Of a stretch of 64,000 nt of DNA, positions 41,249 through 52,566 are shown one piece after another. The translations under genes were made by a program, and so were the position numbers. Each line of letters begins with the position of its first letter. The first letter of the stretch is position 1. Source of the stretch: an uncultured Alistipes sp. (GTDB lineage Bacteria > Bacteroidota > Bacteroidia > Bacteroidales > Rikenellaceae); NCBI GenBank assembly GCA_944322005.1, contig CALUNL010000006.1, forward strand, positions 1 to 64,000. The letters are read 5' to 3'. The notes under the pieces are model-generated. The model was not told the origin of the DNA. It did not search any database and saw only the letters and a program-made list of their open reading frames with translations.

Positions 41249-43384
41249 ATGGGAATATCGGAACTTCAGATCGTAAAGCGCGACGGCAAGCGCGAGACGT
41301 TTTCCATCGAAAAGATCAAGCGTGCGGTGTCGAAGGCGTTCCTGTCGGTGGGCGGATATGCCACCGAGGATGACCTCATCTCGGTGCTCGGGCGCGTACA
41401 CGTCTCCGACGGCATGAGTGTCGAGGAGATTCAGAACCAGGTCGAGGTGGCACTCATGGCCGAGCGCTACTTTGCCGTGGCCAAGAGCTACATGCTCTAC
41501 CGCCAGAAACATGCCGAGGACCGCGAGGACCGCGAGAAACTCGACTTCCTCATCGACTACTGCGACGCGTCGAACCCGGCCTCGGGCAGCAAGTACGACG
41601 CCAACGCCAACGTCGAGAACAAGAACATCGCCACCCTCATAGGCGAACTGCCGAAACGCAACTTCATCCGCCTTAACCGCCGCCTGCTTACGGACCGCAT
41701 CAAGGAGATGTACGGCCGGGAGCTTGCGGACAAGTACCTGCACCTGCTCAACAACCACTTCATCTACAAGAACGACGAGACATCGATGGCCAATTACTGC
41801 GCCTCGATAACGATGTACCCGTGGCTGTTGAACGGAACGCTCTCCGTGGGCGGTAACTCCAAGCGCCCGACCAACCTCAAGTCCTTCTGCGGAGGCTTCG
41901 TGAACATGGTATTCATCGTCTCGAGCATGCTCAGCGGGGCGTGCGCCACGCCGGAGTTCCTGATGTACATGAACTATTTCATCGCGAAGGAGTACGGCGA
42001 GGACTACTACCTGCGCGCCGACGAGGTGGTCGACCTCTCGCTCAAGCGCCGCACCATCGACAAGGTCATCACCGACTGCTTCGAGCAGATCGTCTACTCG
42101 ATAAACCAGCCGACGGGCGCCCGCAACTTCCAGGCCGTATTCTGGAACGTGGCCTACTACGACCGCTACTATTTCGAGAGCCTTTTCGGCGAGTTCCGCT
42201 TCCCGGACGGCTCGCGGCCGCACTGGGAATCGCTTTCGTGGCTGCAGAAGCGCTTCATGAAGTGGTTCAACCGCGAGCGTACGCGCACCGTGCTGACCTT
42301 CCCCGTCGAGACCATGGCGCTGCTGACGAAGGACGGCGACGTGATGGACCGCGAGTGGGGCGACTTCACGGCCGAGATGTATGCCGAGGGACATTCGTTC
42401 TTCACCTACATAAGCGACAACGCCGACTCGCTCTCGAGCTGCTGCCGCCTGCGCAACGAGATTCAGGACAACGGCTTCAGCTACACGCTCGGCGCCGGCG
42501 GCGTCTCGACCGGCTCCAAGAGCGTGCTCACCATAAACCTCAACCGCTGCATACAGTACGCCTCCAGAAACGGCATGCACTACATGTCTTTTCTCGAAGA
42601 TGTGGTCGACCTGACGCACAAGGTGCAGACGGCCTACAACGAGAATCTGAAGGCGCTGCAGGCGAAGGGGATGCTCCCGCTCTTCGATGCGGGATACATA
42701 AACCTCTCGCGACAGTACCTCACCATAGGCGTCAACGGCCTGGTCGAGGCGGCCGAGTTCCTCGGCATCGAGATCTCCGACAATGACCGCTACGCCGCGT
42801 TCGTGCAGGAGGTGCTGGGGCTCATAGAGCGCTACAACAGGAAGTACCGCAGCAAGGAGCTGATGTTCAACTGCGAGATGATTCCGGCGGAGAACGTGGG
42901 CGTGAAGCATGCCAAGTGGGACCGCGAGGACGGATACAGCGTGCCGCGCGACTGCTACAACTCCTATTTCTATGTCGTGGAGGACGACTCGCTTAATATT
43001 GTCGACAAGTTCCGCCTGCACGGCCGCCGCTACATCGAACACCTTACGGGCGGCTCGGCCCTGCACATGAACCTCGAGGACCACCTCTCGAAGGCGCAGT
43101 ACCGGCAGCTCCTGCGCGTGGCCGCGCGCGAGGGGTGCAACTACTTCACCTTCAACATACCGAATACGGTCTGCAACGAGTGCGGACACATCGACAAGCG
43201 CTACCTGCACGAGTGTCCGGAGTGCCACTCCTCGAATGTGGACTACCTCACGCGCGTGATAGGCTACATGAAGCGGGTGTCCAACTTCTCGGCGGCCCGC
43301 CAGAAGGAGGCGGCCCGCAGGTATTACGCACACGTTGCGCCTTCGGCGGAGGGAGGTGCCGTTCAGGATGGTCAGGTACTTTAA
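41249..43384 (+). CDS. nrdD: Anaerobic (class III) ribonucleoside-triphosphate reductase
   Basis: A 711-residue glycyl-radical enzyme that makes deoxyribonucleotides without oxygen or B12. The N-terminus is an ATP-cone (IVKRDGKRETFSIEKIKRAV; about 1-95). The body has SSCCRLRNEI with the likely catalytic Cys and GAGGVSTGSKS. The C-terminus has a zinc site (CNECGHI and CPECHS) and the radical-glycine loop RVIGYMKRVSNFSAARQ. The start MGISELQIVKR was chosen; the frame stays open upstream through the riboswitch. It overlaps nrdG by 17 nt. Confidence 0.95.
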   Translation: MGISELQIVKRDGKRETFSIEKIKRAVSKAFLSVGGYATEDDLISVLGRVHVSDGMSVEEIQNQVEVALMAERYFAVAKSYMLYRQKHAEDREDREKLDFLIDYCDASNPASGSKYDANANVENKNIATLIGELPKRNFIRLNRRLLTDRIKEMYGRELADKYLHLLNNHFIYKNDETSMANYCASITMYPWLLNGTLSVGGNSKRPTNLKSFCGGFVNMVFIVSSMLSGACATPEFLMYMNYFIAKEYGEDYYLRADEVVDLSLKRRTIDKVITDCFEQIVYSINQPTGARNFQAVFWNVAYYDRYYFESLFGEFRFPDGSRPHWESLSWLQKRFMKWFNRERTRTVLTFPVETMALLTKDGDVMDREWGDFTAEMYAEGHSFFTYISDNADSLSSCCRLRNEIQDNGFSYTLGAGGVSTGSKSVLTINLNRCIQYASRNGMHYMSFLEDVVDLTHKVQTAYNENLKALQAKGMLPLFDAGYINLSRQYLTIGVNGLVEAAEFLGIEISDNDRYAAFVQEVLGLIERYNRKYRSKELMFNCEMIPAENVGVKHAKWDREDGYSVPRDCYNSYFYVVEDDSLNIVDKFRLHGRRYIEHLTGGSALHMNLEDHLSKAQYRQLLRVAAREGCNYFTFNIPNTVCNECGHIDKRYLHECPECHSSNVDYLTRVIGYMKRVSNFSAARQKEAARRYYAHVAPSAEGGAVQDGQVL

Positions 43385-43931: not shown

Positions 43932-44216
43932 ATGAATGATATGGAAAATAAGTCTCTTTTGCCGGTTTGCTGCCCGTCGTGCGGCAGCCGGTTGCAGGTA
44001 CGGCGGCTCGGGTGCCCGTCGTGCGGTACGGAGGTGATGGGCGACTATCCGCTGCCCGCGCTGATGCGCCTCTCGGTCGAGGAGCAGGAGTTCGTGCTGG
44101 CGTTCGTCAGGAGCAGCGGCTCGCTCAAGGAGATGGCGTCGCTGCTGAAGCTGAGCTACCCGACCGTACGCAACAAACTCGATGACATAATAGAAAAATT
44201 TGGCAAACAGGATTGA
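43932..44216 (+). CDS. DUF2089 family zinc-ribbon/HTH protein
   Basis: A 94-residue protein. The N-terminus is a four-Cys zinc ribbon (CCPSCGS then CPSCGT), and the C-terminal half is a predicted helix-turn-helix (SGSLKEMASLLKLSYPTVRNKLDDII). This matches DUF2089, thought to be a small DNA-binding regulator. A second ATG at 43941 is an alternative start, and a predicted RNA start near 43927 would slightly favour it. It ends 3 nt before a Yip1-type membrane protein gene, which it may regulate; this pairing is seen in other Bacteroidetes as far as I recall. Confidence 0.82.
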   Translation: MNDMENKSLLPVCCPSCGSRLQVRRLGCPSCGTEVMGDYPLPALMRLSVEEQEFVLAFVRSSGSLKEMASLLKLSYPTVRNKLDDIIEKFGKQD

Positions 44217-44820: not shown

Positions 44821-44855
44821 AAACGGAGGGGTTTCATGACGAAATCCCTCCGTTT
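44821..44855. terminator. Bidirectional terminator between Yip1 gene and pyrB
   Basis: A 15-bp stem (aaacggaggggtttc / gaaatccctccgttt, one G-U) with loop atgac. It is flanked by an A-run on the left and a T-run (gcttttttttt) on the right, so it ends both the plus-strand Yip1 transcript and the minus-strand pyr operon. Confidence 0.9.
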
Positions 44856-44876: not shown

Positions 44877-45956
44877 CTATTTAACCTTCGAGTCGCAGTA
44901 GAGGCAGCGCAGTTCGCCCGACTCCCCGCGGCGGAAGCGCGGCTCGACATTCTCCATGTTGGAGATGCAGTTGCGGTTGGAGCAGGTGCATCCGGCCGCT
45001 TCGGCGGTGTCGCTGCGCTCCGGCATGCCGTGAGACGGGTCGTCGCGCCACTCCAGAAGCCGGCAGATAAGCGCCATGCGCACGAACTTCCCGTTCTCGA
45101 CCTGTCGGAAGTAGGCTGCGCGCGGGTCGGCGTCAACCTCCTTGAGTATCTCGTTCACGCGCGGCAGCGGGTGAAGTATCGCCATCCGCTCCTTGGCTGC
45201 CGAGAGCTTTGCGCGGTCGAGTACGAAGCTGTCCTTGAGGCGGTCGAACTCCTCCTCGTCGAGGAAACGCTCCTTCTGCACGCGTGTCATGTAGAGGACG
45301 TCGAGCTCTCCCATCACCTCCTCCATGGTGCGGCACTCGCGGTACTCTATGCCGCAGCGGTCGCACACGTCGTGCTTGATGTAGTCGGGCAGCTGCAGCT
45401 CGTCGGGCGCGATGAGTATCACGCGCGTCCCCTCGTAGCGCGAGAGCGCCTTGATGAGAGAGTGGACGGTGCGTCCGAACTTGAGGTCACCGCAGAATCC
45501 CACCGTGAGGTGGTCGAGGTGCCCGAGTTCGCGCTTTATCGTGAGCAGGTCGGTCAGCGTCTGCGTCGGGTGGCTGTGGCTGCCGTCGCCGGCGTTTATG
45601 ACCGGTACGCGCGATACGGCCGATGCCGCCAGCGGGGCACCCTCGATGTGGTGACGCATGGCGATTATGTCGGCGAAGCATCCGACGACGCGCACCGTGT
45701 CCTCTACCGTCTCGCCCTTGCTTACCGAGGTGTTGCGGGCATCGGCGAAGCCGAGTACGTTGCCGCCGAGCTCCATCATCGCCGCCGTAAAGCTCAGGCG
45801 TGTGCGTGTGCTCGGTTCATAGAAGAGCGTGGCGAGCTTGCGCCCCTTGCACCGCTCGCTGTAACGCTCCCGGTGAGCTATGATGTCCTCTGCGAGGGAT
45901 ATGATGTCGGAGGTCTCTTCGGGTGTGAGGTCCGTCGGGTCGATAAGATGTTTCAT
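44877..45956 (-). CDS. pyrB: Aspartate carbamoyltransferase fused to a PyrI-type zinc ribbon
   Basis: A 359-residue protein, about 48 longer than E. coli PyrB. The catalytic chain (about 1-310) is complete: FYEPSTRTRLSF with the carbamoyl-phosphate loop at 49-52, GDGSHSHPTQTLTDL and ILHPLPRVNEI. The extra C-terminus (about 320-359) has Cys325, Cys330, Cys351 and Cys354 in the pattern C-x4-C-x20-C-x2-C, with SNRNCISN and RCLYCDSK, closely matching the zinc-binding domain of the regulatory chain PyrI. The nucleotide-binding allosteric domain of PyrI is absent, and no pyrI gene is in the window. The tail may hold the catalytic trimers together without CTP/ATP control. It is the last gene of the pyr operon. 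Confidence 0.95.
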   Translation of the reverse strand: MKHLIDPTDLTPEETSDIISLAEDIIAHRERYSERCKGRKLATLFYEPSTRTRLSFTAAMMELGGNVLGFADARNTSVSKGETVEDTVRVVGCFADIIAMRHHIEGAPLAASAVSRVPVINAGDGSHSHPTQTLTDLLTIKRELGHLDHLTVGFCGDLKFGRTVHSLIKALSRYEGTRVILIAPDELQLPDYIKHDVCDRCGIEYRECRTMEEVMGELDVLYMTRVQKERFLDEEEFDRLKDSFVLDRAKLSAAKERMAILHPLPRVNEILKEVDADPRAAYFRQVENGKFVRMALICRLLEWRDDPSHGMPERSDTAEAAGCTCSNRNCISNMENVEPRFRRGESGELRCLYCDSKVK

Positions 45957-45974: not shown

Positions 45975-46607
45975 TTATTTTATCCAGCTTTCGTCCGAAG
46001 GGTTGTCGCGGAAGGCGAGTATCCGCTCCCGCTCGTCGGCGGTGATGCGTCCCTCCTCGAGTGCGGCATCGACCAGCGCGTCGAGGTTCGAGAGCGAGTA
46101 GTTGACCGTTCCGGCTTCGGCTATACGCTCGATGCCGCGCCGCATGCCGTAGGTGAATATGCTCACGATGCCGAGGACGTCGCCTCCGGCCTCGCGCAGG
46201 GCGTCCACAACCTCGATGCAGCTGCCTCCGGTCGATATGAGGTCCTCGACGACCACAACCTTGTCGCCCTTCTCAAGCTTGCCCTCGATGCGGTTGGCGC
46301 GGCCGTGATCCTTGGCCCCGCTGCGGACGTATCCCATCGGAAGGTCGAGTATCGTCGCCGTTATGGCGGCATGGGCAATGCCCGCGGTGGAGGTGCCCAT
46401 CAGAACGGTGCACTCCGGGAACTTCGTGCGTACGAGTTCGGCCAGTCCCGCCTCGATCTTCTCGCGCACGCGCGGCACCGAGAGCGTCAGACGGTTGTCG
46501 CAGTATATGGGGCTCTTTATTCCGCTCGCCCATATGAACGGCTGCTGCGGGCGCAGGAAAACGGCGCCTATCGAGAGCAGCTCCTTTGCAATCTCCTTTT
46601 CGGTCAT
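45975..46607 (-). CDS. pyrE: Orotate phosphoribosyltransferase
   Basis: A 210-residue enzyme that joins orotate and PRPP to OMP. Seen: [25 protein letters not shown], the flexible loop [15 protein letters not shown] and the PRPP motif [13 protein letters not shown]. It lies 18 nt before pyrB and 40 nt after the thioredoxin-like gene. Confidence 0.95.
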
Positions 46608-46647: not shown

Positions 46648-46917
46648 CTATTTGTCCTCTGCGAGTGCACGGCGCAGAATCCTCTCCACCTCCTCCGGGA
46701 ATATGCCGCCCTCGTGCACCTTCTTGTCGCCGACGTAGAAGGTCGGGACATAGTAGTAGTCGTAGCGGTCGGCGATGTCGGGATGCTCCGACTCCTCTAT
46801 GGTCTCGATCTCGACCGCAGCCAGCTCCGGATGGGCCTTGCGGGCCTCGTCGATGTAACTGAACGCCCTCTTGCAGAAGGGGCAGTTGTGCAGGTAGAAA
46901 AGCTTTATCTTCGCCAT
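46648..46917 (-). CDS. Small thioredoxin/glutaredoxin-fold protein in pyr operon
   Basis: An 89-residue protein with a redox-active CPFC (Cys12-Cys15) after an LFYLHN strand, a cis-Pro region YYYVPTFYVGD and a C-terminal helix. It looks like a stand-alone glutaredoxin-like thiol-disulfide protein. The start MAKIKLFYL was chosen; the frame continues upstream but not plausibly. It sits between pyrF and pyrE (15 nt and 40 nt gaps), so it is co-transcribed with pyrimidine genes. A role in keeping a pyr enzyme reduced is possible but is inference. Confidence 0.82.
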   Translation of the reverse strand: MAKIKLFYLHNCPFCKRAFSYIDEARKAHPELAAVEIETIEESEHPDIADRYDYYYVPTFYVGDKKVHEGGIFPEEVERILRRALAEDK

Positions 46918-46931
46918 ATCCTCTTTTTTGT

Positions 46932-47630
46932 CTATCCGAAAAACTCCTTCACGCACCTCTCGTATGCCGCAACCGGGTCGGCTGCCGCCGTTACGGGACG
47001 TCCGACGACGATGTAGTCGGAGCCGATTTCACGTGCCCGCGCCGGCGTGGTGATGCGCACCTGGTCATCCGATGCGGAGTCGGCAAAACGTATGCCGGGA
47101 GTGACGGTCAGGAATCCCTGCCCGCAGCGCGACTTGACGTCGGCTGCCTCAAGCGGCGAGCAGACCACTCCGTCGAGCCCCGACCGCGCCGCATTTTCGG
47201 CGTAATGCATTATGGTGTACCGTATGTCGGTGCCGATGAGCAGTTCGTCGCGCATGCGCTCCTCGCTGGTCGACGTGAGCTGCGTCACGGCGATGAGCAG
47301 CGGCCGCGTACCGTCGGGCCTGACGAGTCCCTCGAGTGCCGCGCGCATCATCTCGGCCGTGCCGGCCGCGTGGACGTTGCACATGTCGATGTCGAGCCGC
47401 GAGAGCACGCCCATGGCCTTTTTTACGGTGTTGGGTATGTCGTGCAGCTTCAGGTCGAGGAATATGCGGTGGCCGCGCCGCTTTATCTCGCGGACGATCT
47501 CCGGCCCCTCCGCATAGAAGAGCTCCATGCCTATCTTCACGAACGGCTTGCGTTCGCCGAACTGCCCGAGAAACTCGAGCGTGCGTTCCCTGCTGCTGAA
47601 ATCGCAGGCTATTATCACATCCTTTGCCAT
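46932..47630 (-). CDS. pyrF: Orotidine-5'-phosphate decarboxylase, short type
   Basis: A 232-residue enzyme for OMP to UMP. Seen: IACDFSS with a substrate Asp, VKIGMELF, the catalytic [16 protein letters not shown] and VGRPVT. It is the short, Bacillus/E. coli-like form rather than the longer subfamily 2 form found in several Bacteroidetes. Confidence 0.95.
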
Positions 47631-47646: not shown

Positions 47647-48579
47647 TTATCCTCTGTGTGCCGCGCCGATTATCCCTTCGAGCCGCTCTATGCCGAGCCG
47701 CTCCATGACCTTCGGCAAATTCTCTATTATATCCCTGCATGCATACGGGTTGTGCAGGTTCGCCGAGCCCACCTCGACGGCCGAGGCTCCGGCCATCATC
47801 ATCTCCACGACATCTTCGGCGCTCTCCACGCCGCCGCAGCCGACCACCGGTATGCGGCACGCCCCGGCCACCTGGTATACCATGCGCAGCGCCACCGGGA
47901 ATACGGCCGCACCCGAAAAACCTCCCGTGGTGTTGGCAAGTACCGGACGGCGGCGGCGGATGTCGATGCGCATGCCGAGCAGCGTGTTTATCAGCGTCAG
48001 GCCGTCGGCCCCCTCATCCTCGCAGGCGCGGGCTATGGAGACTATGTCCGTGACATTTGGGCTCAGTTTTACTATGAGGGGCTTTGTCGTGACCCGGCGT
48101 GCGGCGCGTGTCACCTCGGCCGCCGCCTCGGGCGACGTACCGAAGGCCATGCCTCCGTTGTGGACGTTCGGGCACGAGATGTTAAGCTCGATGAAGGCCA
48201 CCTGCTCCTGCGAATCCATGCGCCGGCAGCACTCCGTGTACTCCTCCACCGAGAATCCGCTTATGTTGGCCATTATCGGTTTGCGGAAGCGGCTGCGAAG
48301 CCGCGGCAGCTCCTCCGCAATCACCGCGTCGATGCCCGGGTTCTGTAACCCGACCGCATTGAGCATGCCCGAGCGGCACTCGGCGATGCGCGGCGTAGGG
48401 TTTCCGAACCTCGCGTGAAGCGTCGTTCCCTTGAGCGAGACGGACCCGAGTATGTTGATGTCGTAGAAGTCGTCGTACTCGCCGCCGAAGCCGAATGTCC
48501 CGCTCGCCGGGATTATCGGGTTGTCGAGCCGCACCCCGCAAAGGTGTGTCGAAAGGTCGTATTTTGTGCTCTCTGCCAT
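47647..48579 (-). CDS. pyrD: Dihydroorotate dehydrogenase, class 1B catalytic subunit
   Basis: A 310-residue FMN enzyme that oxidises dihydroorotate to orotate and passes electrons through PyrK to NAD. The catalytic cysteine of class 1 enzymes is in [11 protein letters not shown]. Also seen: [40 protein letters not shown] and GCGGV. The start [10 protein letters not shown] was chosen over an upstream codon that overlaps pyrK. It lies 4 nt after pyrK. Confidence 0.95.
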
Positions 48580-48583
48580 ATCC

Positions 48584-49324
48584 CTATTCCCATATAACCT
48601 CCGCACGGCGGAGTACCGGTCCATCCTTGCATATGCGTTTGCTCCCCGATGCGGTCTTGCAGCTGCAGCCCATGCAGGCGCCGAAGCCGCAACCCATGCG
48701 CTCCTCGAAGCTCATCTCTCCGTCGGCCGGAGTGGCCTCGCACAGCGCGCGCAGCATCGGTACCGGACCGCAGGCGTAGAAGTAGTCGAAACCGCCCTCT
48801 CTGTCGCGCACCTCATCGGTCACGAGCCCCTTGCGGCCGTACGAACCGTCGGCCGTGGTGACGATGACCTCCGCACCCGTCGCGCGGAACTCGTCGGCGT
48901 AGAATACCTCTTCGGCCCGGTTGAACCCGAGGATGACGGTCACCTGCCTTCCGCGTGCGACCAGATCCTTTGCCAGACGGTAGAGCGGAGGTATGCCGAC
49001 GCCACCGCCCACAAGCAGCGGCCGGCGGCAGTCGTGCTCCGCGTCGAAGCCGTTGCCAAGTCCGGTGAGGATGTCGAGACGCTCCCCGCGCCGCATGGCA
49101 GCCATGCGGGAGGTGCCTTCGCCCACGACCTTGTAGATTATCGTAAGGCTGTCGGCGGTGAAGTCGCACACCGAAATCGGCCGGCGCAGATACAGGCCGT
49201 CGATTGCGATGTTGACGAACTGTCCGGCGCGCTTTACGGCCGACGCGTCGCCGCGGAGCCTCATGCGCATGACATCGGCCGTCAGTGCCGCGTTGTCCTC
49301 TATTTCGAACACTACCTTGTCCAT
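48584..49324 (-). CDS. pyrK: Dihydroorotate dehydrogenase electron-transfer subunit
   Basis: A 246-residue ferredoxin-reductase-like subunit. Seen: the FAD-binding RRPISVCDF, VGGGVGIPPLYRLA for NAD, and a C-terminal [2Fe-2S] site (CGFGACMGCSC followed by a Cys in RICKDGP). It channels electrons from PyrD to NAD. The ATG at 49324 was preferred to a TTG nine bases upstream. Confidence 0.94.
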   Translation of the reverse strand: MDKVVFEIEDNAALTADVMRMRLRGDASAVKRAGQFVNIAIDGLYLRRPISVCDFTADSLTIIYKVVGEGTSRMAAMRRGERLDILTGLGNGFDAEHDCRRPLLVGGGVGIPPLYRLAKDLVARGRQVTVILGFNRAEEVFYADEFRATGAEVIVTTADGSYGRKGLVTDEVRDREGGFDYFYACGPVPMLRALCEATPADGEMSFEERMGCGFGACMGCSCKTASGSKRICKDGPVLRRAEVIWE

Positions 49325-49350
49325 CACGTGCAAGTTAATCCAAATTTTCC

Positions 49351-52300
49351 TTATCTCGAAATGCGTCCGGTCGTTTTTGCCCCGTATTCGGCGTCGATGG
49401 TCGACACACCGAGCGTTATCTCCTCGAGAACGTCCAGAAGCACGCGCACCGTCTCCAGCGAGGTGAATATCGTGATGTTGTTCTCAACGGCCGCACGGCG
49501 TATCTCGTAGCCGTCCAGACGCGTGCTGTGCTGGTTGAGGTCGATGGTATTCACCACATAGTTGACGTGTCCCTTGCGCAGGGTCGTGTAGATGTCGTTG
49601 CTGCCCTCGCTCAGCTTGCCCAGACAGCGGGTGCGCAGACCGTGCTCGCGCAGGAAGTTGGCCGTGCCGCGCGTGGCCTCGATGTTGAATCCGAGGTTGT
49701 AGAAGCGCTTTATGAGCGGCAGCGCCGTCTGCTTATCCTTGTCGGCGAGCGTTACGAGTATGGTGCCGTAGTTCACGACCGCCATTCCCGATGCCTGCAG
49801 CGACTTGTAGAGTGCGCGCGTGAGCGTGTCGTCGTAGCCTATGGCCTCGCCCGTCGACTTCATCTCCGGGGAGAGGTAGGAGTCCACGCCCTTGATCTTG
49901 GCGAAGGAGAAGGCTGGGGTCTTGACGAACCACCGCTTGCGCTCCGGTGCGCAGACCTCCGTGATGCCCTGCTCGCGCAGCGAGTGGCCGAGGATGACGC
50001 GCGTGGCAATCTGCGCCATCGGCACCCCGGTCGATTTCGATAGGAACGGCACCGTGCGCGACGAGCGCGGGTTGACCTCGATGACGTAGACCTTCTCGTC
50101 GGCGTCGACGATGAACTGTATGTTGAAGAGTCCGACGATGCCTATCGCAAGGCCGAGCCTTACGGTGTAGTCGGTTATCGTACGCTTGACCTTTTCGCTG
50201 ACGCTGAATGTAGGGTAGACGCTTATGCTGTCGCCCGAGTGGATGCCGGTCTTCTCGACATGCTCCATTATGCCCGGGATGAAGACGTCGCGGCCGTCGC
50301 AGATGGCGTCGACCTCGAGCTCCTTGCCCATGATGTACTTGTCGACCAGCACCGGCGAGTTCTCGTTTATCTCGACGGCGTTGTGGAGGTAGTAGCGCAG
50401 CGTCTGCTCGTTGCCCACGATCTGCATGGCGCGGCCTCCGAGCACGAAGCTCGGACGCACGAGCACCGGATAGCCGATGCGCTCGGCGGCACGCACTCCC
50501 TCCTCAATGTCGGTTATGGCCTCGGCAGGCGGCTGCGGTATGCCGACCTCGTTCATGATGTTCTCGAACAGCTTGCGGTCCTCCGCCTTGTTTATGGCGT
50601 CGATGCCGGTTCCGATGATCTTCACGCCGTGACGCGCCAGCGGCTCGGCGAGGTTTATGGCCGTCTGTCCGCCGAGCGACACTACGACTCCGAGCGGATT
50701 CTCCAGACGGATGACGTTCATCACGTCCTCGACCGTCAGAGGCTCGAAGTAGAGCTTGTCGCTTATGGTGTAGTCGGTCGATACTGTCTCCGGGTTGTTG
50801 TTTATGATTATGGCCTCGTATCCCGCCTCGCGGATGGCCCAGATGGCATGTACGGTCGAGTAGTCGAACTCGACGCCCTGTCCGATGCGAATCGGGCCCG
50901 AGCCGAGAACGACGATTTTCCGCCGGTCGCTCACCACCGACTCGTTCTCCTGCTCGTAGGTCGAGTAGAAGTACGGAACGTACGACTGGAACTCGCTCGC
51001 GCAGGTGTCGATCATCTTGTACACCGGGAACATCCTCTCGTGCTCGCGCATGGCGAACACGTCGTCGGCGCTGCATCCCCACAGTTTGCCTATGTATTTG
51101 TCGCTGAATCCCATGCGCTTCGCTTCGTAGAGCGTTTCGCGGTCATGGGGATGTGCCGCCACGACAGCCTCCTCCTCGACGATGTTCTTGATCTTCTCGA
51201 GGAAGAACATGTCGATCTTCGTGCGGTCGTAGATGAGCGACAGGTCGATGCCGTTGCGTATGAGCTGCGCTATGGCGTAGAGACGGTCGTCCGGGCAGCG
51301 TGCGATGTAGGCCAGCATGTCGGCGTTGGACATCGTGTCGAACTTCTTGCTGTAGAGGTGGCATACGCCCGTCTCGAGCGAGCGCACCGCCTTGAGCAGG
51401 CTCTCCTCGATGGTGCGGCCGACGCTCATCACCTCGCCCGTGGCCTTCATCTGCGTGCCGAGCTCGTTGGAGGCCTCGCTGAACTTGTCGAACGGGAAGC
51501 GCGGTATCTTCGTGACGACGTAGTCGAGCGCAGGCTCGAAACTTGCCGGCGTGTTGGCTATGTCTATCTCGTCGAGCGTCAGTCCCACCGCAATCTTCGC
51601 GCTTACGCGGGCTATGGGGTAGCCGCTGGCCTTCGACGCGAGCGCCGAGGAGCGCGACACGCGCGGGTTGACCTCGATGATGTAGTAGTTGAACGATAGC
51701 GGGTCGAGCGCGAACTGCACGTTGCAGCCGCCCTCGATGCGCAGGGCGCGTATGATCTTCAGCGCACTGTCGCGCAGCAGCTGGTACTCCTTGTTGGTGA
51801 GCGTCTGGCTCGGAGCCACCACGATGGAGTCACCCGTGTGGATGCCGACCGGGTCGACGTTCTCCATGTTGCAGATGGTGATGGCCGTGTCGTTGCGGTC
51901 GCGCATCACCTCGTACTCGATCTCCTTGTATCCCTTTATGCTCTTCTCGACAAGCACCTGGTGGACCGGCGAAAGCATGAGCGCATTGTGCATCAGCTCG
52001 CGCAGCTCGCTCTCGTTGTCGGCGAAACCGCCGCCCGTGCCTCCCAGCGTGAAGGCCGGACGCAGTACGACCGGATAGGTTATCTCGTTGGCCACGCGTA
52101 TGGCCTCCTCCACCGACCCGACCATCTCCGACGGAAGAACCGGCTCGCCGAGCCTTATGCAGAGCTCCTTGAAGAGCTCGCGGTCCTCGGCCTGCTCGAT
52201 GCTCTCGAACGACGTGCCGAGAATCTCGACCTGGCACTCCTCGAGGATTCCCTTGCGGGCCAGCTGTACGGCGAGGTTGAGTCCCGTCTGCCCGCCAAGT

Positions 52301-52566
52301 CCCGGAACGATGGCGTCCGGACGCTCGTAGCGGATGATCTTGGCCACGTATTCGAGCTTCAGCGGCTCCATGTAGACCTTGTCCGCGATGTGGGTGTCGG
52401 TCATTATCGTGGCCGGGTTGGAGTTGACCAGTATCACCTCGTAGCCCTCCTCCTTGAGCGCGAGGCAGGCCTGTGTTCCGGCGTAGTCGAATTCGGCGGC
52501 CTGGCCGATGACTATCGGGCCTGAACCTATCACCATTACCTTCTTTATGTCTGTTCTCTTAGGCAT
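49351..52566 (-). CDS. carB: Carbamoyl-phosphate synthase large subunit
   Basis: A 1071-residue enzyme with two homologous ATP-grasp synthase halves (start [20 protein letters not shown]; second half [20 protein letters not shown]) and a C-terminal MGS-like allosteric domain. It makes carbamoyl phosphate from bicarbonate, ATP and ammonia supplied by CarA. Its first eight bases overlap the end of carA, so the two subunits are translationally coupled. Confidence 0.97.

Follow-up and report, generated by a model that had tools for sequence, protein, structure and literature searches.

ATCase is a textbook allosteric enzyme, and the separate contribution of the zinc domain of its regulatory chain (PyrI) has been studied in E. 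coli by means of an isolated peptide. The pyr locus analysed here raises the question of what kind of ATCase results when this zinc domain is joined to the catalytic chain (PyrB) in a single polypeptide, and whether the allosteric part of the regulatory chain is still encoded elsewhere. We address this question for the window, by which we mean the whole stretch of 64,000 nucleotides, and for the relatives of its pyrB gene.

The gene, termed pyrB-Zn (44877..45956, minus strand; 359 residues), is the last of a run of pyr genes and encodes a full ATCase catalytic chain fused to a C-terminal PyrI_C zinc ribbon. The catalytic part (residues 1-303; 45048..45956, minus strand) matches OTCace_N (PF02729, residues 2-141) and OTCace (PF00185, residues 149-298), scores 336.9 bits over residues 2-300 in a profile search with TIGR00670 (cut-off 236.95), and bears the active-site residues S52-T53-R54-T55, K84, H134, R167, R229, and Q231, thereby combining both domains with the conserved active site of an ATCase catalytic chain. 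A variable linker (residues 304-324; 44985..45047, minus strand), whose length differs among relatives, connects it to the ribbon (residues 325-354; 44895..44984, minus strand). There, Cys 325, 330, 351, and 354 are spaced as C-x4-C-x20-C-x2-C, with an extra Cys at 323, and PF02748 (PyrI_C) matches residues 324-358 with 37.1 bits (E 2.9e-9), above its curated cut-off of 23.4, as expected of a PyrI zinc domain. TIGR00240, the model for full PyrI, finds the PyrI_C residues again (E 4e-5) but falls far short of its own threshold, the protein having no more of PyrI than the zinc part. When a profile of 26 tails was compared with the PDB, only PyrI chains were found below E 0.1 (12 distinct sequences, E 6.5e-10 to 1.9e-5), the next match having an E of 0.19. 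The original prediction of a complete catalytic chain followed by a PyrI-type ribbon is thus borne out. The protein is not a PyrI regulatory chain, since neither it nor the genome contains PF01948; it is not a class C enzyme (a catalytic trimer without regulatory sequence; class names after the available part of PMC6022934), since the ribbon is present; and it is not a Thermotoga-type PyrBI with both allosteric and zinc domains fused, since PF02748 occurs alone.

A separate pyrI elsewhere in the genome had been named beforehand as the finding that would contradict this picture, and it did not turn up. PF01948, the nucleotide-binding domain of PyrI, has no match in the own genome even at E<=1, and the pyrB tail is the single PF02748 match there, while 7 of the 14 control genomes match PF01948 in the same search, and likewise PF02748. 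PF01948 was also found in none of the 42 fused-gene genomes searched, which were drawn from the best 80 of 585 relatives.

The zinc-capped PyrB looks like a real, conserved, slimmed-down form of the allosteric enzyme that is common to many relatives. Among 120 genomes of the family, PF02748 was found in 112 and PF01948 in 62. Within the own genus (g1), the fused gene occurs in 30 of the 32 sampled genomes, and all 30 were read: 29 were found by PF02748, and the remaining one (G102) has a shortened tail under the search threshold with the four Cys kept. In the two exceptions, G104 and G108, PyrI is a separate chain of an ordinary Bacteroidales pyrBI, together with the other type of PyrE. Genus g20 has PF02748 in 22 of 23 genomes and PF01948 in none; 21 of these 22 matches lie in frames of at least 361 residues and one (G086) in a frame of 229 residues, and the tails of 12 of the 22 were read and are all fused. 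PF01948 is present in 60 of the remaining 65 genomes of the family. At the level of the order, PF02748 was found in 361 of 393 genomes, and when 40 of them, mostly low scorers, were searched again, 35 had PF02748 and the same 35 had PF01948. The low scorers G751, G615, and G667 fell outside this second search, and the matches listed for the order give no frames for middle scorers; the zinc-only fusion may occur elsewhere in the order. A survey of 296 genomes of the phylum gave PF02748 in four, namely the own genome and three with frames of 154-167 residues. In a scan of species genomes, the motif was present in 79 of the best 80 of 585 relatives, picked by likeness, and the exception ends at a contig end; these 80 are labelled Alistipes, Tidjanibacter, Cryptobacteroides, Cacconaster, and several families, although labels of MAGs may err. 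Two side observations were made in these surveys. One fused-type genome has a second, weak PF02748 match under the cut-off (G093:C2:122885-122986, E 7.5e-4) in a frame of 45 residues, probably another small Cys ribbon. Six genomes (G010, G098, the one g20 genome without an ATCase match, G415, G436, G516, and G655) have no ATCase-level match, with partial matches of 31-33% identity or none, and are either auxotrophs or affected by assembly gaps.

For the analysis of conservation, the fused set was defined as 118 distinct sequences with at least 320 residues and at least 58% identity to the window protein. Of 119 distinct tails, 118 retain all four Cys, that of G102 among them, and the remaining tail is truncated at a contig end; with such retention the motif is not a product of chance. 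Of 16 positions checked in PyrB, which we take to be the catalytic residues, 15 do not vary among the 118 fused and 61 separate-type proteins; at the sixteenth, A127, 112 of the fused ones have Ala and 6 have Gly. Pooled dN/dS was 0.043 for the catalytic part, 0.088 for the ribbon, 0.074 for the last few residues, and 0.204 for the linker. Only the ranking of these rough values counts because synonymous sites approach saturation (pS about 0.55 in the 46 close pairs, which share no sequence).

The residues with which the zinc domain meets the catalytic chain distinguish the fused ribbon from separate PyrI. We take rLys143 to be a T-state contact to the opposite trimer, and cArg113 and cGlu109 presumably touch the zinc domain of the regulatory chain. 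Among the 118 fused tails, rAsn111 is kept in 114, rGlu119 in 117, rTyr140 in all, and an acid at r142 in 117, and cAsp236 of the catalytic part is kept in 113. By contrast, Lys at r143 occurs in 0 of 118 fused tails, as well as not in Acetoanaerobium noterae, versus 61 of 61 separate PyrI chains. Position c113 is Arg or Lys in 61 of 61 separate-type enzymes, Leu in 103 of 118 fused ones, and Lys in Acetoanaerobium. A Trp at E. coli position 306, close to where the catalytic part ends, is found in 116 of 118 fused and 0 of 61 separate-type enzymes and is absent in the Clostridial ones. Lys or Arg mostly replaces rAsn113 in the fused tails and is also common in separate Bacteroidales PyrI. The fused ribbon usually stops five residues past the last Cys, as against 12-13 in separate PyrI. 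The accessible part of a study from 2020 (PMC6981877) describes rAsn111, rAsn113, rGlu142, and rLys143 as interface residues, mutation of which lowers feedback or destabilises the T state. The pattern would fit a ribbon that has kept its place on the chain to which it is fused while giving up its part in linking two trimers. With cArg113 mostly replaced by Leu, the catalytic-ribbon interface is, judging by its residues, at least remodelled.

How did the fused gene arise? At separate-type loci (n=84, some from one genome), pyrI follows pyrB on the same strand in 82; the two others are a single fused gene (L116) and a locus without pyrI (L212). The latter belongs to a 99% complete Bacteroidales genome (G551), whose PyrB is 48% identical and which has no PF02748 or PF01948 match, i.e. 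a PyrB without PyrI. In genome G013 (L193/L018), unlike in nearly all relatives, no catalytic chain was detected within 13 kb next to a full PyrI. A local in-frame deletion between adjoining pyrB and pyrI was considered and dropped because the fused PyrBs are not nested in the Bacteroidales pyrBI clade. A PyrB tree of 165 rows unites all 118 fused genes in one clade with local support of 100, and E. coli PyrB, flagged as a long branch, adjoins this group; long branches were flagged in this and every other PyrB tree. Relatives in a plasmid collection were the PyrB of Lachnospira eligens (59% identity, no ribbon) and that of Acetoanaerobium noterae (50% over 99%, with ribbon). Several class B PyrBs are also about 50% identical to the window PyrB, without coverage of the tail, and the kinship of the Acetoanaerobium enzyme therefore rests on the tree. 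A tree of 58 rows comprised 21 fused rows chosen from the 118, the two named Clostridia, and the IMG/VR contigs L226, L227 (partial), and L247, of which L226 and L227 were taken as Clostridial by assumption. All of these group together (100/98), to the exclusion of 25 Bacteroidales PyrBs, separate or fully fused. Although L247 and other rows were flagged as long branches, a tree of 54 rows without L247 gave the same outcome. In the 58-row tree, the ribbon-bearing Acetoanaerobium and L247 diverge first, whereas Lachnospira and L226, which have no ribbon, stand nearer the Rikenellaceae-type genes. Two changes of the ribbon trait suffice on this tree, for example one gain and one loss. An exclusive clade of ribbon-bearing PyrBs was disfavoured (p-AU 0.027, for a group picked after an earlier tree), which fits loss of the ribbon in Lachnospira and L226. 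In these two enzymes of the same clade, the ribbon is evidently dispensable.

The neighbouring pyrE (45975..46607, minus strand), directly upstream of pyrB, shows a split in inheritance that matches that of pyrB. In the 18 genomes searched, identity to the window PyrE is 69-81% in six other fused genomes versus 44-49% in 11 genomes with separate PyrI. On the L227 contig, pyrE abuts pyrB, and its product is 67% identical to the window PyrE. Rooting a PyrE tree on the Acetoanaerobium PyrE proved unusable for direction, given an outgroup branch length of 10; with this poor outgroup, the L227 PyrE is placed among the fused-type sequences instead of next to them and lends no support to L227 as donor. 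Because PyrE shows the same split as PyrB, it is likely that pyrB was acquired together with at least pyrE, probably from a Clostridial lineage that already carried the fusion. Transfer of a pyr segment from Clostridia would be the simplest reading, with the donor deduced and both donor and direction resting on few sequences. The idea that only the zinc part was kept and fused in cis accordingly needs dividing: PF02748 without PF01948 agrees with it, whereas local retention is doubtful, the gene belonging to a Clostridia-linked clade and having probably been acquired already fused.

Viral collections were searched as well. In IMG/VR, the window query found L226 and L227, the Lachnospira query the L227 contig alone, and the Acetoanaerobium query no relative, while among the best 80 of 148 matches to an alignment query, a motif script detected one fused tail (L247) and one separate PyrI motif. 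L247:1-1056 encodes a fused PyrB-ribbon of 352 residues at a contig end, with the four Cys and a PF02748 match under the cut-off (E 0.0021), beside phage-like neighbours. In a phage collection, 37 records matched, and in the 20 listed the match stops at residue 306 or before. ATCase genes were also seen on very long contigs labelled viral, among others L252, L259, and L266 in IMG/VR (up to 529 kb) and H70 in the phage collection (LR756511.1, 595 kb); these are possibly pyrimidine genes of huge phages.

The run to which pyrB-Zn belongs has the order pyrC, carA, carB, pyrK, pyrD, pyrF, a small thioredoxin-like gene, pyrE, and pyrB, where pyrC and carA were named by eye from the sequence without a family search. 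All other members were assigned by profile matches, again on the minus strand: carB (49351..52566), pyrK (48584..49333; PF10418 above its cut-off, the best NCBIfam electron-transfer-subunit models below theirs), pyrD of subfamily 1 (47647..48624), pyrF (46932..47630), and the thioredoxin/glutaredoxin-like gene (46648..46956) between pyrF and pyrE. A small protein with two CxxC pairs is encoded convergently to pyrB at 43932-44216 (plus strand). Just past the pyrB stop, a scan listed, for the plus strand only, a terminator-like hairpin of 15 pairs (44821..44855); it is weak by count (one found versus a shuffle mean of 0.5), and the T run at its end on the minus strand was seen by eye only, the scan having no minus-strand entry. 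The proposal that regulation has moved to an RNA leader of the operon was dropped, since no Rfam family matched between positions 43000 and 60000 at E<=0.1; a leader of a type outside Rfam may still be present. UMP usually controls CarB through its MGS domain, and the one found here at residues 948-1035 may be where such control remains, with feedback acting one step before ATCase.

Taken together, we consider it somewhat more probable than not that pyrB-Zn encodes an active, zinc-capped ATCase trimer in which PyrI is reduced to a ribbon in cis, PyrI-type control by CTP and ATP is gone, and the origin is probably Clostridial. Of the regulatory chain, the zinc ribbon alone would remain, fused to the catalytic chain. 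In the trimer, every chain would most likely pack the ribbon it carries against the carbamoyl-phosphate domain, where the PyrI zinc domain docks in E. coli, and the docked ribbon might stabilise the trimer and tune the active site. The allosteric domain is, we assume, the part that forms the r-r dimer in class B ATCase; without it, two trimers should not be bridged by a PyrI dimer, and CTP/ATP control of the PyrI type should be missing. Feedback would then probably act on CarAB, by UMP via the MGS domain of CarB, and on transcription. Zinc binding, docking, oligomeric state, and kinetics of the fused enzyme are predictions from sequence, and the earlier suggestion of a zinc-stabilised assembly that has lost CTP/ATP control appears reasonable on the same grounds.

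The ribbon might instead be a fading remnant without a role, leaving in effect a class C trimer. Its absence from the Lachnospira and L226 enzymes, the two changes sufficient on the tree, its early stop past the last Cys, and the still shorter ribbon of G102, which misses PF02748, all point that way; the near-complete retention of the four Cys, even in G102, and a ribbon dN/dS well under that of the linker speak against it, and we regard a remnant as unlikely. We judge equally unlikely that the ribbon makes contacts between trimers, or with other ribbons, by which a hexamer forms in the absence of PyrI. In E. coli, the zinc domain is also turned towards the opposite trimer, and the conserved cAsp236 would suit such contacts, but the uniform loss of rLys143 from the fused tails, when every separate PyrI has it, argues against them, provided that the residue has the role assumed above.

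Slightly less credible again is a four-Cys site that senses metal or redox state and through which an anaerobe would adjust its ATCase to oxygen stress or to the supply of zinc. The site consists of Cys only, and a thioredoxin/glutaredoxin-like gene lies among the pyr genes; yet this gene is seen in just 5 of the 14 fused loci listed (L096, L115, L147, L156, and L163), and the PDB profile matches identify the site as the one in the PyrI zinc domain. Finally, the enzyme could be a true class B ATCase with a separate PyrI that the assembly lacks or that has diverged too far to be recognised, as the own genome is 95.68% complete in seven contigs. The lack of PF01948 in all 42 fused-gene genomes and in the fused g1 and g20 genomes, set against the control genomes that do match, leaves this explanation close to refuted, and we give it hardly any weight.

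Beyond the zinc-capped trimer itself, we tentatively propose, as a scenario that falls somewhat short of an even chance, that such enzymes form a distinct ATCase class recording a stepwise passage from class B to an unregulated trimer. The steps would lead from PyrB with PyrI, via PyrB with a ribbon in cis (Acetoanaerobium, L247, and the Rikenellaceae type), to PyrB alone (Lachnospira and L226), and the middle form would have crossed phyla with part of the pyr operon and replaced the native pyrBI in common gut genera. The fused enzymes may therefore show the stepwise dismantling of an allosteric enzyme, and they bear on the control of pyrimidine synthesis in common gut genera, probably Alistipes and Tidjanibacter.

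Among the papers listed in a literature search, which leaves most subscription journals outside its coverage, none names an ATCase with the zinc domain alone fused. Compared with the class B enzyme of E. coli, a PyrB-PyrI dodecamer, the fused enzyme has a homologous catalytic chain, 49% identical and matching it in the active-site residues, and the same four-Cys zinc ribbon with Asn111, Glu119, and Tyr140, but it lacks the allosteric domain, a separate regulatory chain, and rLys143, has cArg113 replaced, and carries its ribbon in cis. With class C enzymes of the B. subtilis type it would share a trimer without PyrI; it differs in having the ribbon and in lying near class B PyrBs, in trees that contain no class C enzyme. 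The PyrBI fusion of Thermotoga maritima (Chen et al. 1998) likewise joins catalytic and regulatory sequence in one chain, and the title of that paper, which both PMC4581275 and PMC6022934 cite, describes the enzyme as allosteric. The T. maritima genome, used as a control, matches PF01948, whereas the window fusion keeps the ribbon alone. A full PyrB-PyrI fusion of 468 residues with allosteric and zinc domains also occurs in Bacteroidales (G627, L116:250-1653), in another family of the order and another clade.

The same architecture is seen in the unannotated ATCase of Acetoanaerobium noterae (L221; 357 residues), which, in addition to the identity over 99% of the query and the missing Lys at r143, has no PF01948 match over the cut-off in its 2.6 Mb record (two matches under it, E 0.17 and 0.40, with Ilyobacter and Prevotella matching as controls). 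It differs in its phylum (Bacillota), in its gene order with pyrB first, and in its Lys at c113. A model of how the fused enzyme might work is the isolated zinc domain of E. coli PyrI: in 1991, Markby, Zhou, and Schachman reportedly bound this 70-residue domain to the catalytic trimer. In that construct, as is predicted for the fused enzyme, a zinc domain acts on a catalytic trimer with no allosteric domain, but the peptide was supplied in trans, whereas the window ribbon is natural, shorter, and in cis. The fused enzymes are thus many diverse natural versions of that construct, with a sharp switch at r143, and permit a direct test of the role of the zinc domain without the nucleotide sensor.
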